Assembly: GCA_036490475.1 (NCBI GenBank)
Contig: DASXDT010000006.1
Coordinates: 558,001 to 622,000 of the forward strand
Direction of reading: 5' to 3'
DNA from: Candidatus Tumulicola sp.
GTDB lineage: Bacteria; Vulcanimicrobiota; Vulcanimicrobiia; Vulcanimicrobiales; Vulcanimicrobiaceae
DNA length: 64,000 bases
This document shows positions 16,833 to 21,359 of the stretch, one piece after another (the first letter of the stretch is position 1; every line of letters starts with the position of its first letter). The notes below the pieces were generated by a model. It had not been told where the DNA came from. It saw only the letters and a list, made by a program, of their open reading frames with translations, and did not search any database. Position numbers and translations under genes: made by a program.

Positions 16833-18233
16833 ATGCAGCTCAAGCCCGACCCCACCTTTTATGCCTCCGCCAAAGACGCGATGCAAGCGCCGCCGGAGAA
16901 GCTCGCTTACGTCGCGCTCTTAAGCGCGAGCGGTAATCACGTTCCGGATGCGCTCGCAGTCGTCGACGCCGATCCGACTTCATCGACGTATGCGAGCGAA
17001 ATCGGCCGCGTCGAATTGCCGAATACCGGGGATGAGTTGCATCACTTCGGTTGGAACGCGTGCAGCGCCGCGCTGTGTCCGTTCGCACCGCGCGCGCATG
17101 TCGAGCGCCGCTATCTGATCGTTCCGGGATTGCGTTCGTCGCGCATCTACATCATCGACACGAAGCCGGATCCGACGAAGCCGCGCATCGTTCGGACCAT
17201 CGAAGCGCAAGACATTCTCGAAAAGACCGGCTACACGCGGCCGCACACCGTGCATTGCGGGCCGGACGCGATTTATGTCAGCGCTTTAGGAAATGCCGAC
17301 GGCGAAGGTCCTGGCGGAGTGTTCATGCTGGACTGCGACACGTTCGATATTATCGGAAAGTGGGAAGCCGATCGCGGTCCGCAGTACCTCGCGTACGATT
17401 TCTGGTGGCATCTTACGCACGATGCGATGGTAACGAGTGAGTGGGGCACGCCGAATATGATCGAAGGCGGCCTGAATCCCGAGTTGTTGCTCGCGGGCAA
17501 GTACGGGCATCAACTCCATTTTTGGGATCTGCGCAAGCGAAAGCACGTGCAGTCGATCGACCTCGGAGCCGAGCAACAAATGGTGCTCGAGTTACGTCCT
17601 TCACACGATCCGGCGAAGACGTACGGTTTCGTCGGCGTCGTCGTTTCGTTAAAAGATTTGTCGGCATCGATTTGGTTGTGGTATCGCGATAACGACAAGG
17701 ACACATGGGCAATCAAGAAGGTGATCGAAATCCCGGCCGAGCCGGCCGATCCCGCACAGCTACCCGACATGCTCAAAGGCTTTTCGGCCGTACCTCCGCT
17801 CTTGACCGACATCGGGCTCTCGCTGGATGATCAATACTTGTACGCGTCTTGCTGGGGCACCGGCGAGCTACGTCAATACGACGTGAGCGACCCGTTCAAC
17901 CCGAAACTCGTTGGTTCGGTCCATATCGGTGGCATCGCTCGTCGCGCTCCGCATCCGCGTAACCCTGAAAAGCCGCTGCTCGGGGGACCGCAGATGGTCG
18001 AGATCAGCCGCGACGGTAGGCGCGTCTACTTCACGAACTCGCTGTATCGCAGCTGGGACGATCAATTCTATCCCGAGGGCGTCGACAGCTGGATGGCCGG
18101 CTTGGACATCGCAGAAGACGGCACTATGCGCTTCGACGAGAACTTCTATCTCGAATTCGATAACAATCACCGCGCGCATCAAGTGCGACTGCAAGGTGGC
18201 GACGCGTCGTCGGATTCATACTGCTTTTCTTGA
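16833..18233 (+). CDS. selenium-binding protein SBP56 / methanethiol oxidase family
   Basis: A 466-residue cytosolic-type protein (no signal peptide) that is recognisably SBP56: ELHHFGWNACSAALCP, YLIVPGLRSSRIYIIDTKPDP, RPHTVHCGPDAIYVSALG, VTSEWGTPNMIEGG, HFWDLRKRKHVQSIDLG, DDQYLYASCWGTGELRQYDV, GGPQMVEISRDGRRVYFTNS and LYRSWDDQFYPEG. Bacterial members oxidise methanethiol to formaldehyde, sulfide and hydrogen peroxide with copper. The His-rich and Cys-bearing motifs are conserved here. The ATG follows a GGGGGAAG Shine-Dalgarno. Many characterised bacterial versions have a Sec signal, and this one does not, so its location may differ. Confidence 0.92.
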   Translation: MQLKPDPTFYASAKDAMQAPPEKLAYVALLSASGNHVPDALAVVDADPTSSTYASEIGRVELPNTGDELHHFGWNACSAALCPFAPRAHVERRYLIVPGLRSSRIYIIDTKPDPTKPRIVRTIEAQDILEKTGYTRPHTVHCGPDAIYVSALGNADGEGPGGVFMLDCDTFDIIGKWEADRGPQYLAYDFWWHLTHDAMVTSEWGTPNMIEGGLNPELLLAGKYGHQLHFWDLRKRKHVQSIDLGAEQQMVLELRPSHDPAKTYGFVGVVVSLKDLSASIWLWYRDNDKDTWAIKKVIEIPAEPADPAQLPDMLKGFSAVPPLLTDIGLSLDDQYLYASCWGTGELRQYDVSDPFNPKLVGSVHIGGIARRAPHPRNPEKPLLGGPQMVEISRDGRRVYFTNSLYRSWDDQFYPEGVDSWMAGLDIAEDGTMRFDENFYLEFDNNHRAHQVRLQGGDASSDSYCFS

Positions 18234-18239
18234 TGAGAA

Positions 18240-19433
18240 CTAATGTGATTGAGGAAAAGTACCCGGTGCCAGTGCATCGGCTAACGCGCGAAAGACGGCG
18301 GTAGCGCCTAAACCCGCATTGCCTTTATCGTCGTACGCGCCCGAACCGTTCGTCGCTTCGACCGCAATCGTCAGCTTGCTGCTCGGGAGGTAACCGACGG
18401 CACCCGACGCGCCCGCAAAGCCGAGCGTCTGCGCGATCCAAGCGCCGGATCGAATGACACCCAGGCCATAGCTAAACGTTTCGTCGTTCGCTCGACACGC
18501 CGGACACCCGCTCTGTGCGTGGCCGAAGCCAATCAAGCTCGGCGCGAGTTGCGCCGCCGACGACTCCTTTGACAACAGCTTTCCATTCGAAACGGCTTCG
18601 ATCGAAAGCGCCAAATCGTGGATGTCGGTCGTTTCAACTGCGCCATCTATGGTCGTCCACGATGGATTCCAGAATGTCGCCTCTTCATAGAACGGCGTTC
18701 CCGGCGCGATGCCGAGCGTTTCGCGACGCTCGGAGCTGAACGTATGTAAAACCGGCGAGGGGATCGATGCGCCGGCGTTCGTCTGCGTTTGCGTCAATCC
18801 GATCGGGTGCAAGACATTGTCTCGAATTGCATCGGCGAGCGGCACGCCCGCGATCTTTTCAAGCACCCGTCCTAAGATCACGTAGTTCGTGTGCGAGTAG
18901 CCCCAGTTCGTGCCCGGCGCGAACTGCAGCGGCTTCGAAACACCGATGTGGATGAGTTCGTCCGACGTCCACTTGCGAAACGGATCGCGATACGTGCCGT
19001 CGATCGTTTCGGGCTGATACACATAGTCGGCGTATCCCGACGTCATCTGCGCCAGATTCCGAAGCGTTATCCGGTTCGCATCTGGAAGATTCGGAAAGTA
19101 CTTCGAGAGTTTTGTATCGAGCGAAACTTTCTTTTGGTCGACGTACTCGAGCAACAGCGTCGCCATAAAGCTGAACGCGATCGCTCCGTTGCGGAAATGC
19201 ATGTCCGTAGTAGCCGGCACTCCCGTCATCGATTCGCCGAACGCGCCGTTATAGATCGTTTTACCGTTCGACCGCACCTGTACGATGAGCGCTCGAAGGT
19301 GATTGGCCGCCATAGATGCCCGGGCGACGTTTCGAACCGTCGTCGCCACAGGCACATCGGCTCGCGCACTTGCAAGACAAGATGTGGCGGCCGCGGTGGC
19401 AAGCACCCCACCCAGCAAGAAACGCAAACGCAT
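18240..19433 (-). CDS. beta-lactamase/DD-peptidase-fold protein lacking catalytic residues
   Basis: A 397-residue secreted protein (signal peptide MRLRFLLGGVLATAAATSC) with the overall plan of class C beta-lactamase-type serine hydrolases: LDTKLSKYFPNLPDANRITL, LAQMTSGYADY, FAPGTNWGYSHTNYVILG. All three active-site motifs are altered. In the expected SxxK box, in the context FRNG....SFMAT, the residues are A84-I-A-F87, with neither Ser nor Lys. The YxN motif reads Y179-S-H. The H/K-T/S-G triad near the C-terminus reads FAG. The fold is probably kept for binding and not for hydrolysis. It lies 26 nt downstream of the glutathione peroxidase gene in the sigma-factor cluster. Confidence 0.8.
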   Translation of the reverse strand: MRLRFLLGGVLATAAATSCLASARADVPVATTVRNVARASMAANHLRALIVQVRSNGKTIYNGAFGESMTGVPATTDMHFRNGAIAFSFMATLLLEYVDQKKVSLDTKLSKYFPNLPDANRITLRNLAQMTSGYADYVYQPETIDGTYRDPFRKWTSDELIHIGVSKPLQFAPGTNWGYSHTNYVILGRVLEKIAGVPLADAIRDNVLHPIGLTQTQTNAGASIPSPVLHTFSSERRETLGIAPGTPFYEEATFWNPSWTTIDGAVETTDIHDLALSIEAVSNGKLLSKESSAAQLAPSLIGFGHAQSGCPACRANDETFSYGLGVIRSGAWIAQTLGFAGASGAVGYLPSSKLTIAVEATNGSGAYDDKGNAGLGATAVFRALADALAPGTFPQSH

Positions 19434-19459: not shown

Positions 19460-20011
19460 TTACGCGCCCTTGCGTGAAAGTTCGCGTTCGATCGACTCGC
19501 GAAGACGGTTGTCATCCGGCTTGACATCGGGTGAGAAGCGATCGACGACGGTGCCGTCGCGACCGATCAGAAACTTCTCGAAGTTCCACAGTACTTCGGG
19601 CGCCGGATTCGGAGTAACGCCAAACTTGACCAGACCTTCGCGAAACTTTTCGGTGTCGGGCACCTCCGGACGTTGCTCGATCATTTCGGCGTACAGCGGG
19701 TGCTTGTTCTCACCCACAACCGCGATCTTCGAAAACATCGGGAAATCGATCGCGTAGTTGGTCGAACAGAAGTCCGCGATCTCGGGCTCGCTGAGAGGCT
19801 CTTGGCCGGCGAAGTCGTTCGACGGAAAACCCAATACCTCGAGGCCTTTATCGCGATACGTCTTGCTGAGCGCCTCGAGCCCTTCGTATTGTGGCGTCAG
19901 GCCGCATTTCGAGGCCGTGTTTACGACGAGCAACACCTTGCCGGCATACTCGCCCAATGTTGTGTCGCGCCCGTCGATGGTCGTAATCGGTATTTGTTGT
20001 AAATCGTTCAT
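19460..20011 (-). CDS. glutathione peroxidase family (thioredoxin-dependent type likely)
   Basis: A 183-residue peroxidase reducing hydrogen and lipid peroxides. Signature blocks are VVNTASKCGLTPQY (peroxidatic Cys36, not selenocysteine), LGFPSNDFAGQEP with the tetrad Gln, and WNFEKFLIGRDG with Trp and Asn. A second cysteine in IADFCSTNYAIDFPMF fits the resolving Cys of thioredoxin-dependent GPx proteins. The ATG at 20011 gives the normal N-terminus. It sits downstream of a sigma/anti-sigma pair on the same strand with a 54-nt gap, which suggests peroxide-stress regulation by inference only. Confidence 0.93.
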   Translation of the reverse strand: MNDLQQIPITTIDGRDTTLGEYAGKVLLVVNTASKCGLTPQYEGLEALSKTYRDKGLEVLGFPSNDFAGQEPLSEPEIADFCSTNYAIDFPMFSKIAVVGENKHPLYAEMIEQRPEVPDTEKFREGLVKFGVTPNPAPEVLWNFEKFLIGRDGTVVDRFSPDVKPDDNRLRESIERELSRKGA

Positions 20012-20065
20012 AACACGTACCGCCTTCGGCGGGCGTGCCCCACTGCCTTCGACCACCGAGCTCAG

Positions 20066-20824
20066 CTACGGTGCCACATACATTTTCTGGACAGAATGGC
20101 GCAGAGGAGGCCACACCCCAACAATGGGAGTGCCGCGCATCGACGAACGAATCGCGTTGATTTCGGATTTAGTGATCCCATCGCCGGTGATCGCCGTCAT
20201 CACTTGATCTCCGTTTCGCCATGCGAACTTATCGTGGACGATGTAGACGTGGCGGCCGTTACGTTCGTCTCCTTCCTCGACGATATACTTCGACGGCGGC
20301 CCTCCGTGCGGATCGAAAGCGGCTGCCATCAGCTGAAACGAAGCGCCACGCCGCCGGCGATACGTGAACCAGACGTTGGCAGTTCCAACGCTCCACGCGC
20401 GCGCAGATAAGGAGTAATCGGCGCCGGGCATGGTCGCAATAGTTTCCAACGTTACATCTTTTGGAAGCCCGACCGGTGCGACGATGGTGAATTTCACCAT
20501 CGACTGTGCCTTCGCGAGCGTGCCGGTTTGCGAGCGCAACGCTGCAACGAGCGAAGCAGACGGCGGAGGAGGCGGACTCCAGCGCAGCACCGTCTCGACG
20601 ATCCGCGATTCGAGGCGCTGGACGAAAGCGGGAGCAACGATGGGAAGTACCGCGAGCGCAATCGCCGTTGCTGCCGCAACGGTTACATAGAAACTGGTAC
20701 GCGTTATGGGTTCGCGCGCAGGTCGTCCCATTCGGTACCGAATGGTTGCTAGAGAAACCGGGGGTACTTCGATATCCCGCACCATGCAGTGCAGGCCTTT
20801 GGAAATTCGAGCGTCACCGTACAT
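20066..20824 (-). CDS. single-pass membrane protein, probable anti-sigma factor
   Basis: The ATG at 20824 follows a GAGGGAG Shine-Dalgarno and lies inside the last codons of the upstream ECF sigma gene (overlap of 11 nt). That tight coupling is the main reason to call it an anti-sigma factor. The protein of about 252 residues has a short cytosolic N-terminus of about 40 residues, one transmembrane helix (SFYVTVAAATAIALAVLPIVA), a proline run (PPPPPSAS) and an extracytoplasmic domain with strands such as YSLSARAWSVGTANVWFTYRR. No zinc-binding HxxxCxxC motif is present, so it is not a ZAS-type anti-sigma factor. I cannot name the family. Confidence 0.65.
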   Translation of the reverse strand: MYGDARISKGLHCMVRDIEVPPVSLATIRYRMGRPAREPITRTSFYVTVAAATAIALAVLPIVAPAFVQRLESRIVETVLRWSPPPPPSASLVAALRSQTGTLAKAQSMVKFTIVAPVGLPKDVTLETIATMPGADYSLSARAWSVGTANVWFTYRRRRGASFQLMAAAFDPHGGPPSKYIVEEGDERNGRHVYIVHDKFAWRNGDQVMTAITGDGITKSEINAIRSSMRGTPIVGVWPPLRHSVQKMYVAP

Positions 20825-21359
20825 CGAGAAGAACTCCCTCGGTCGGCTGCGCCGCATCGGCGACGGCAAGTGCTTTTCGCAACGCCGCACGAGCGCGCAT
20901 CAAGTGAAAACGAACGGTCACGGGCGCGATCCCGAGCGCGGCCCCGATCTCTCCGCTATTCAAACCACCGTAGTAGTGCAAGAGTATCGTTGCGCGTTGG
21001 CGTGGCTCTAGGGTTCCGAGTGCCTCGTTGAGATCGAAGGCATCACCACTGTCGATGTGTGTTTTCACGCGGCGCACTTCATCGAGGCTTGCCGAGGCAG
21101 GCCGCGAGCGGACGGTGTCGAGCGCCCGGTTCGTTATAATCTTATAGCTCCAGGCGGTGAAAGCACCGGAATCTTTGAGGGAACTCAAGCGGCGCGCGAT
21201 GGTGGCGCAAGCTTCTTGCGCCGCGTCTTCGGCAAGGCCACGATCGCGCACGATTGCGAAGGCGACTCGATACGCGTCCGGCCAAAGCCGAACGATGAGC
21301 GCCTCGAGAGCCTCGCCTCCCAGCCGCGCCGCTTCCACGGCCTCACGTTCGATCAGCAT
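20814..21359 (-). CDS. ECF-type RNA polymerase sigma factor
   Basis: A 181-residue sigma-70 family protein with only regions 2 and 4. Region 2 (about residues 20-85) contains AYRVAFAIVRDRGLAEDAAQEA and AFTAWSYKIITNRALDTVR. Region 4 (about 110-165) contains LEPRQRATILLHYYGGLNSGEIGAALGIAPVTVRFHLMRARAALR, the -35-binding helix-turn-helix. The acidic first residues and the linker are ordinary. It is the first gene of a minus-strand run sigma, membrane protein, glutathione peroxidase, inactive serine hydrolase. No target promoter motif could be established from this window. Confidence 0.93.
   Translation of the reverse strand: MLIEREAVEAARLGGEALEALIVRLWPDAYRVAFAIVRDRGLAEDAAQEACATIARRLSSLKDSGAFTAWSYKIITNRALDTVRSRPASASLDEVRRVKTHIDSGDAFDLNEALGTLEPRQRATILLHYYGGLNSGEIGAALGIAPVTVRFHLMRARAALRKALAVADAAQPTEGVLLDVR

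Follow-up and report, generated by a model that had tools for sequence, protein, structure and literature searches.

What can a protein do that has the fold of the S12 serine hydrolases and lacks the residues with which these enzymes cut? The question is raised by a gene found on the minus strand of the window, the 64,000-nucleotide stretch of Candidatus Tumulicola sp. DNA. The original prediction for this gene was a secreted pseudoenzyme in which all three catalytic motifs had been lost, possibly acting as a sensor or decoy for peptidoglycan or beta-lactams. The features of the gene and its product are the following:

18240..19433, minus strand: coding sequence of a Lys-less S12-fold pseudohydrolase of 397 amino acids (open reading frame, PF00144, AlphaFold2 model, structural neighbours)
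19356..19433, minus strand: signal-peptide-like N-terminus, amino acids 1-26 (charged start, hydrophobic stretch, ARA)
19173..19184, minus strand: former SxxK box, A84-I-A-F87 (DNA and alignments)
18891..18899, minus strand: former YxN motif, Y179-S-H181, with Tyr kept and Asn replaced by His (DNA and alignment)
18657..18659, minus strand: Trp259, the equivalent of Trp233 in the R61 DD-peptidase (phmmer alignment)
18495..18506, minus strand: C310-P-A-C313, a Cys pair within an insertion that is characteristic of the core family (alignment columns)
18423..18431, minus strand: true column of the third motif (HxG/KTG), Q335-T336-L337 (MAFFT, hhalign)
18411..18419, minus strand: F339-A-G341, end of the HxGxxxG loop after the third motif (family alignment)

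The frame is uninterrupted over its 397 amino acids, in agreement with the prediction that it is intact, and a Pfam search with its translation gave a PF00144 match over residues 34-365 with an E value of 5.1e-44. The AlphaFold2 model, for which the input was a 45-sequence alignment, had a pLDDT of 89.0 and a pTM of 0.87, and its structural neighbours had Z scores of 30-39 among the 50 matches listed. The nearest solved folds were those of D-stereospecific hydrolases and of the R61 DD-peptidase (Z 37-39, rmsd 2.3-2.6, 324-328 residues), with the top Z scores belonging to 4y7p (38.7), 3wwx (38.4), 9s7k (38.1), and 1ikg (37.5). Structure prediction, which had been proposed as a check, therefore returned the S12 fold, and the window protein is related to the PF00144 and MEROPS S12 serine hydrolases by profile homology as well as by fold; the expectation that the rest of the serine-hydrolase fold would be preserved was correct. 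Among the best 25 of 37 NCBIfam matches no model reached its cut-off with the window protein, and the class C beta-lactamase model NF033085 scored 37.8 bits against a cut-off of 415, which places the protein outside that class. Residues 1-26 were modelled with low confidence, as expected for a signal peptide (pLDDT below 50 at residues 1-11 and 14-26), and from the look of this N-terminus the protein is probably exported.

All three catalytic motifs have indeed been changed, but the catalytic tyrosine is kept and the third motif had been misplaced. Motif 1 reads AIAF, with both the Ser and the Lys of SxxK absent, and motif 2 reads YSH instead of YxN, with Tyr179 retained. The third motif, [KH]-[TS]-G or HxG, had been located at FAG. 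This placement was ruled out by MAFFT and by an hhalign profile-profile comparison of separately built alignments (probability 100), both of which put the motif column at Q335-T-L, so that the column is occupied by QTL in the window protein.

The substitutions are not peculiar to the window copy. An alignment of 109 S12-fold rows (88% non-redundant, including the window protein) was used for motif counts on 107 of them, those without L022, described below, and L071, a two-domain protein in which the third motif was not placed by the alignment. The 107 rows comprise 67 that are Lys-less and 40 that are Lys-bearing, 39 of the latter with SxxK and one, L018, with AxxK. YxH, in the form of YSH, YAH or YCH, is found in 67/67 Lys-less rows versus 0/40 Lys-bearing rows, which have YxN in 39 cases and YSD in one. 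For the third-motif column data were available in 66 Lys-less rows, of which 62 have Gln (the others A, A, T, and M), and the 40 Lys-bearing rows have HxG, YxG or TNG there. Hence the window protein and 66 other rows combine the lack of Lys at the SxxK Lys column with YxH, and the association between the two is far beyond chance. Position 84 is Ala in 59 of the 67 Lys-less YxH rows, Gly in 3, Ser in 3, Phe in 1, and Gln in 1. No Lys is invariant across 45 aligned members, and the lost SxxK therefore has no conserved substitute elsewhere in the protein; the check for another Ser-x-x-Lys in the active site came out in favour of the prediction.

Ala and Ser are found at the nucleophile position as if interchangeable: L136, L140, and L104, which lie apart in the tree, are Lys-less and have Ser there (GSVAI, GSVGI). 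L136 is nested among Ala members, so that a serine in the absence of the lysine probably does not serve catalysis. Locus L018 (898-2718), from the same bacterial family as the window, has Ala at the nucleophile position (GALTK) and keeps the Lys, YNN, and HNG; it is possibly another inactive line. Outer Lys-less members from the window's phylum (L008, L009, L096, L097, and L100) have GFVGW/GAMGW or GGIS[EQ] boxes and YSH, and no Cys pair.

Besides the motifs, a set of residues is near-invariant in the 58-member core and rare in the Lys-bearing rows, namely M78, N82, Y134, H181, E235, R236, E250, C310, C313, Q335, and T361. Gln335, for instance, is present in 58/58 core members versus 0/40 Lys-bearing rows, 32 of which have His at this place. 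Three residues are common to the core and to the active relatives: Tyr179 (58/58 core, 9/9 outer, and 40/40 Lys-bearing rows), Trp259 (58/58 core members and 21/40 Lys-bearing rows), and the generally conserved G341 (58/58 and 40/40). The Trp233 of R61 with which Trp259 aligns has a role in the pocket. Both Cys columns are invariant in the core (45/45 and 58/58 members), with a spacing longer by one residue in L064 and by two in L104, and the pair is absent in L123-L125 and the remaining outer members. Haem binding through a CxxCH of the c-type cytochrome kind was considered and rejected: the window protein reads CPACR, and the His that follows CxxC in some members (e.g., L004, L007, L037, and L085) is not conserved.

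In a tree calculated without the motif columns a single branch (SH-aLRT 99) separated the YxH rows, 51 of 87, from all others, and this was still so when the tree was repeated with L022 included (51 of 88 rows, SH-aLRT 98). Both were quick trees with several long branches; the 87-row tree left out L022, L071, and the incomplete L068, and rows of more than 72% identity were thinned. The Lys-less YxH rows are thus one clade, apart from their Lys-bearing relatives. The loss of the Lys alone is not unique to this clade. L022 (1285-2604), from another family of the window's class, has a full PF00144 match and is Lys-less but has no YxH, its motifs being GAVTE, PSP, and ERG. Its nearest relative, at 43%, is the Lys-bearing L030, and since it groups among Lys-bearing proteins it represents a second, separate loss of the Lys and a counter-example to the rule that Lys-less means YxH.

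Purifying selection acts on the clade. Nei-Gojobori dN/dS was below 0.5 in 50/50 pairs of relatives with at least 78% BLAST identity, and between 0.11 and 0.30 where the compared frame was no longer than 470 codons; these pairs consist of relatives only, the window copy having none close enough for inclusion. Higher values came from longer stop-to-stop frames, which probably extend upstream of the true start. The term pseudoenzyme used in the original prediction is well supported by the existence of one clade, the purifying selection in relatives, and the absence of an alternative SxxK.

The genome of the window and those of its relatives, 60 in total, include six orthologues, one from the same genus and five from other genera of the family, which are 73-56% identical to the window protein and have the same motif substitutions with the exception of YCH for YSH in L003. 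A scan of GTDB genome contigs yielded 43 loci, most of them clear members. L071-L073 are not, being other S12 proteins or weak matches, and neither is L070, where the copy is broken. The broken copy (L070 8001-9708, G162) adjoins an intact-looking S12 gene. The scan is biased to motif-less members because one of the two peptide patterns includes part of a changed motif; no such motif-containing patterns were used in the whole-genome searches. Members were found in Eremiobacterota (Vulcanimicrobiota in the NCBI nomenclature), in MAGs labelled Verrucomicrobiota and Chloroflexota, in Actinomycetota (Arthrobacter, Sinomonas, Rhodococcus, Mycobacterium/Mycolicibacterium, Pseudonocardia, Microbacterium, and others), and, as a single member from Pseudorhodoferax, in Pseudomonadota. 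With the labels taken at face value, these substitutions were thus found by genome scans in five phyla, mycobacteria included, and their recurrence indicates that the motif loss is no decay.

The distribution of the pseudohydrolase family is patchy and mostly single-copy. Members were detected at an E value of 1e-90 in 40 of the 301 genomes sampled from the family to which M. aurum and R. ruber belong; four of the 40 have matches at about 1e-99, and the three of these that were inspected are all without the Cys pair. In the Arthrobacter family members are carried by 7 of 245 genomes (E 1e-90). Of 149 genomes from the window's phylum, 22 have a match at an E value of 4e-101 or lower; the number rises to 29 at 1e-40, a threshold that also admits outer members and some Lys-bearing relatives. 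Copies from Verrucomicrobiota, Arthrobacter, and Pseudorhodoferax lie in or beside the Eremiobacterota group in the tree, which suggests transfer or misbinning. Four copies are in MAGs labelled Verrucomicrobiota (L042, L043, L046, and L069), and the two of them that are in the tree, L042 and L043, fall inside the Eremiobacterota group. Phage records with an S12-like match numbered 1,047, of which 1,033 are named Mycobacterium; among the 20 matches listed the proteins are annotated as minor tail protein or D-Ala-D-Ala carboxypeptidase. The phage tail proteins were rejected as family members on the one that was examined, L105, which keeps SxxK, YTN, and HPG.

The strongest hint of function comes from gene order, which links the clade to intact S12 genes. 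Adjacency was scored at 48 of 72 distinct core members, those for which 2 kb or more of sequence was known on each side, and a SxxK-bearing S12 gene was found within 2 kb at 12 of the 48 loci, 9 of 28 from the GTDB scan and 3 of 20 others, which include hand-picked loci. The expectation was 0.6 of 48 against a background of 192 PF00144 matches in 20 genomes, with a binomial p of 1e-12 at the mean background rate and of 4e-8 at the highest single-genome rate; these p-values are overstated because the loci are related, many of the 20 loci from outside the GTDB scan were hand-picked, and some background genomes were chosen after the adjacency had been seen. The loci not being independent, only the direction of the effect is safe. 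Among the 24 members left out for having less than 2 kb on either side, an S12 neighbour is likewise present at L045, L063, L117, and L032, and at 36 of the 48 scored loci no S12 neighbour was present within 2 kb.

In nine of the 12 cases the partner is directly upstream on the same strand, the matched domains being 14-200 bp apart. The Pfam domain DUF3471 is present in six of the nine partners (L050, L051, L057, L059, L126, and L132), which come from Sinomonas, Granulicoccus, a Chloroflexota MAG, and two genomes of the Mycobacterium and Arthrobacter families; by their coordinates, G194 and G204 have the same arrangement, with a relative of the L050 partner at 42% identity. Other partners belong to separate S12 groups in the tree, in which some branches are long (L047/L133; L031/L033; L040; L064). 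As the partners come from several separate S12 groups, the pairing probably arose more than once. Genes for S12+DUF3471-like proteins were also more frequent in genomes with the pseudoenzyme, as raw counts that ignore genome size and kinship: 30 of 40 with it versus 123 of 261 without it in the M. aurum family (p 8e-4), and 5 of 7 versus 9 of 238 in the Arthrobacter family (p 6e-6). The window copy has no adjacent paralogue, there being no other S12 gene within the 64 kb, and no close DUF3471-type partner was found in its genome, where the best matches had 25% identity and an E value of 1e-11; PF00144 matches in this genome number 18.

Two local arrangements were observed in mycobacterial and related genomes. 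Locus L126 (2382-13142, M. aurum family) includes four S12-fold ORFs within 11 kb, consisting of one SxxK enzyme with DUF3471, two core pseudoenzymes in opposite directions, and one Lys-less outer member. In two mycobacteria (L052 9117-9851 and L066 9132-9866) a frame with a GATase/peptidase C26 match starts 4 nt after the pseudoenzyme frame, which may be plain synteny among relatives; five further frames downstream in L066 had no Pfam match.

In the window itself the surroundings of the gene are different, and include:

19460..20056, minus strand: glutathione peroxidase (PF00255), 26 bp upstream of the pseudohydrolase gene and on the same strand
20814..21359, minus strand: ECF sigma-70 factor, at the head of the same-strand run
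16833-18233, plus strand: SBP56/methanethiol-oxidase-like gene, converging on the pseudoenzyme gene

The same-strand run also includes, upstream, an ORF without a Pfam match that is a possible anti-sigma factor. The gene thus sits behind an ECF sigma/anti-sigma/peroxidase set as the original prediction had it, with the anti-sigma assignment a possible one. A conserved ECF/peroxidase operon was not supported by tblastn: at an E value of 1e-8 the window glutathione peroxidase had no match at the other fetched loci, many of which have flanks of 1.5-8 kb, and the ECF gene matched only L095, weakly (31% identity). Since this context was not found elsewhere, it is not used for deducing function beyond the window genome. 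The SBP56-like gene is present in L142 with 81% identity, about 4 kb from a family member, and L142 is the only one of the fetched loci that shares both this gene and a 214-amino-acid ORF with the window.

Taken together, we consider the window protein to be probably an exported, non-catalytic member of an old clade of S12-fold proteins, which most likely binds a D-amino-acid peptide or wall fragment and partners active S12 hydrolases, a proposal that we believe to have an even chance of being right as a whole. The ancestor of the clade would have lost the Ser-Lys pair of nucleophile and base, the Asn of YxN would have become His, and HxG would have turned into Q-x-x or similar. The fold and a pocket rebuilt around Tyr179, His181, Trp259, and Gln335, as deduced from the sequence alignment, would have been kept under purifying selection, with a new conserved set in the pocket that may include E235-R236, E250, and the Cys pair. 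A peptide containing D-amino acids, or a related wall fragment, would be bound and left uncleaved, and the pseudohydrolase could then serve as a regulatory or substrate-holding subunit of the active S12 hydrolases that are adjacent in a quarter of the loci examined. In a more general form, secreted pseudo-D-peptidases from different phyla could act on active S12 hydrolases as their obligatory or allosteric partners, forming an extracellular module of enzyme and pseudoenzyme that was assembled repeatedly with different S12 subfamilies and is liable to be miscalled 'serine hydrolase'; this extension is tentative, and we lean against it.

The main rival explanation is that of a neofunctionalised enzyme, with the pocket rebuilt for a different chemistry that would use Tyr179 together with His181, Gln335, Glu250 or the Cys pair. 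A new chemistry would be consistent with the near-invariance in the core, and rarity in Lys-bearing rows, of H181, Q335, E235, R236, E250, C310, C313, and T361, with the presence of Tyr179 in every core and outer row, and with the selection that holds the gene in relatives. We regard it as unlikely, however, given a nucleophile position that can be Ala, Gly, Phe, Gln or Ser, with the Ser of L136 nested among Ala members, the lack of an invariant Lys, and the absence of the Cys pair from the outer YxH members. A sensor or decoy, as originally suggested, here for beta-lactams or muropeptides and feeding the adjacent ECF sigma/anti-sigma pair, would agree with the same-strand run that the gene shares with the ECF sigma, the possible anti-sigma ORF, and the peroxidase located 26 bp away, and its fold is that of penicillin-recognising enzymes. 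On the other hand, the ECF/peroxidase context lies beside no other fetched member except for the weak ECF match at L095 (many flanks being short), and the acylating Ser-Lys pair is gone. BlaR1 is a covalent sensor, and the loss of this pair makes a BlaR1-like covalent sensor unlikely. The evidence fits better with a partner or regulator of active S12 hydrolases, since a gene for such an enzyme is adjacent in 12/48 loci, and we consider the sensor or decoy quite improbable.

That the protein is an ordinary active S12 hydrolase, with an unusual arrangement of motifs that the alignment misplaced, might be argued from a PF00144 score well over the cut-off and from a public record in which a 43%-identical relative is called 'serine hydrolase domain-containing protein'; yet all 109 rows have a residue in the columns of motifs 1 and 2, the profile-profile alignment agrees, and no alternative SxxK is conserved, so that this explanation is very improbable. 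Least credible, to the point of being nearly negligible, is a decaying pseudogene. One relative does have a broken copy, L070, which is in pieces with a stop, but the window frame is intact, orthologues at 56-73% identity have the same motif substitutions, and a dN/dS far below 1 in 50/50 pairs of relatives contradicts decay for the family.

Since the cutting parts are lost, and the clade is present in genomes labelled as five phyla and sometimes encoded beside an intact relative, the label 'serine hydrolase' is probably misleading, and the window protein, homologous to S12 as it is, ought not to be classified among the S12 serine hydrolases or the beta-lactamases. A profile search by PF00144 alone counts such proteins as beta-lactamase family. 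If the proposed partnership with active S12 hydrolases is true, it would offer a directly testable case of control of an enzyme by a pseudoenzyme outside the cell.

Comparison with characterised systems places the protein close to active peptidases. It resembles the alkaline D-peptidase of Bacillus cereus (4y7p), 9s7k (dHy1), and 3wwx (Streptomyces 82F2) in fold (rmsd 2.3-2.4 across 324-327 residues, 24-25% identity, Z 38-39), with the motif-2 Tyr aligned. These three enzymes differ from the window protein, with its AIAF, YSH, and QTL, in having SxxK and YSNT, and 4y7p in also having HGG; the position of Trp259 is not Trp in 4y7p or 3wwx. The Streptomyces R61 DD-peptidase (1ikg, 3pte) is similar as well (Z 37.3-37.5, rmsd 2.5), and the equivalents of its Tyr159 and Trp233 are retained as Y179 and W259, while Ala, Phe, and His are aligned in place of its Ser62, Lys65, and Asn161. 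The third motif of R61 is HTG, in place of which the family alignment puts QTL. An S12 fold is also found in a structural setting, the tail tip of Bxb1 (9d93, Z 36.9 to the window model), and gp19 of phage NormanBulbieJr is a mycobacteriophage minor tail S12 protein; unlike the window protein, L105, the one phage protein examined for motifs, has all three.

Judged by title or abstract, none of the papers listed in searches of open-licence PubMed Central text dealt with the Lys-less YxH clade. The three motifs of the superfamily are given in PMC2266909, in the part consulted. A 2008 paper (PMC2605481) recognised inactive S12 homologues as a class, counting 9 of 254 in 91 genomes, and in the portion consulted they are not grouped as a clade with shared substitutions. 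Another parallel is a group of inactive beta-lactamases that includes 5IHV of Burkholderia ambifaria, for which two structures are described with the nucleophile and base replaced (PMC12073871). The group is similar to the window clade in that proteins of beta-lactamase fold have had both residues replaced. According to the sections consulted, it differs in that the pair was compared with the class A enzyme CTX-M-14 and keeps a KAG third motif, and those sections mention neither a clade that spans phyla nor an active paralogue as a pairing partner. As far as the parts of the literature consulted go, inactive proteins of the penicillin-recognising fold are scattered cases, whereas those described here can be considered as one clade in which all three motifs have been swapped together.
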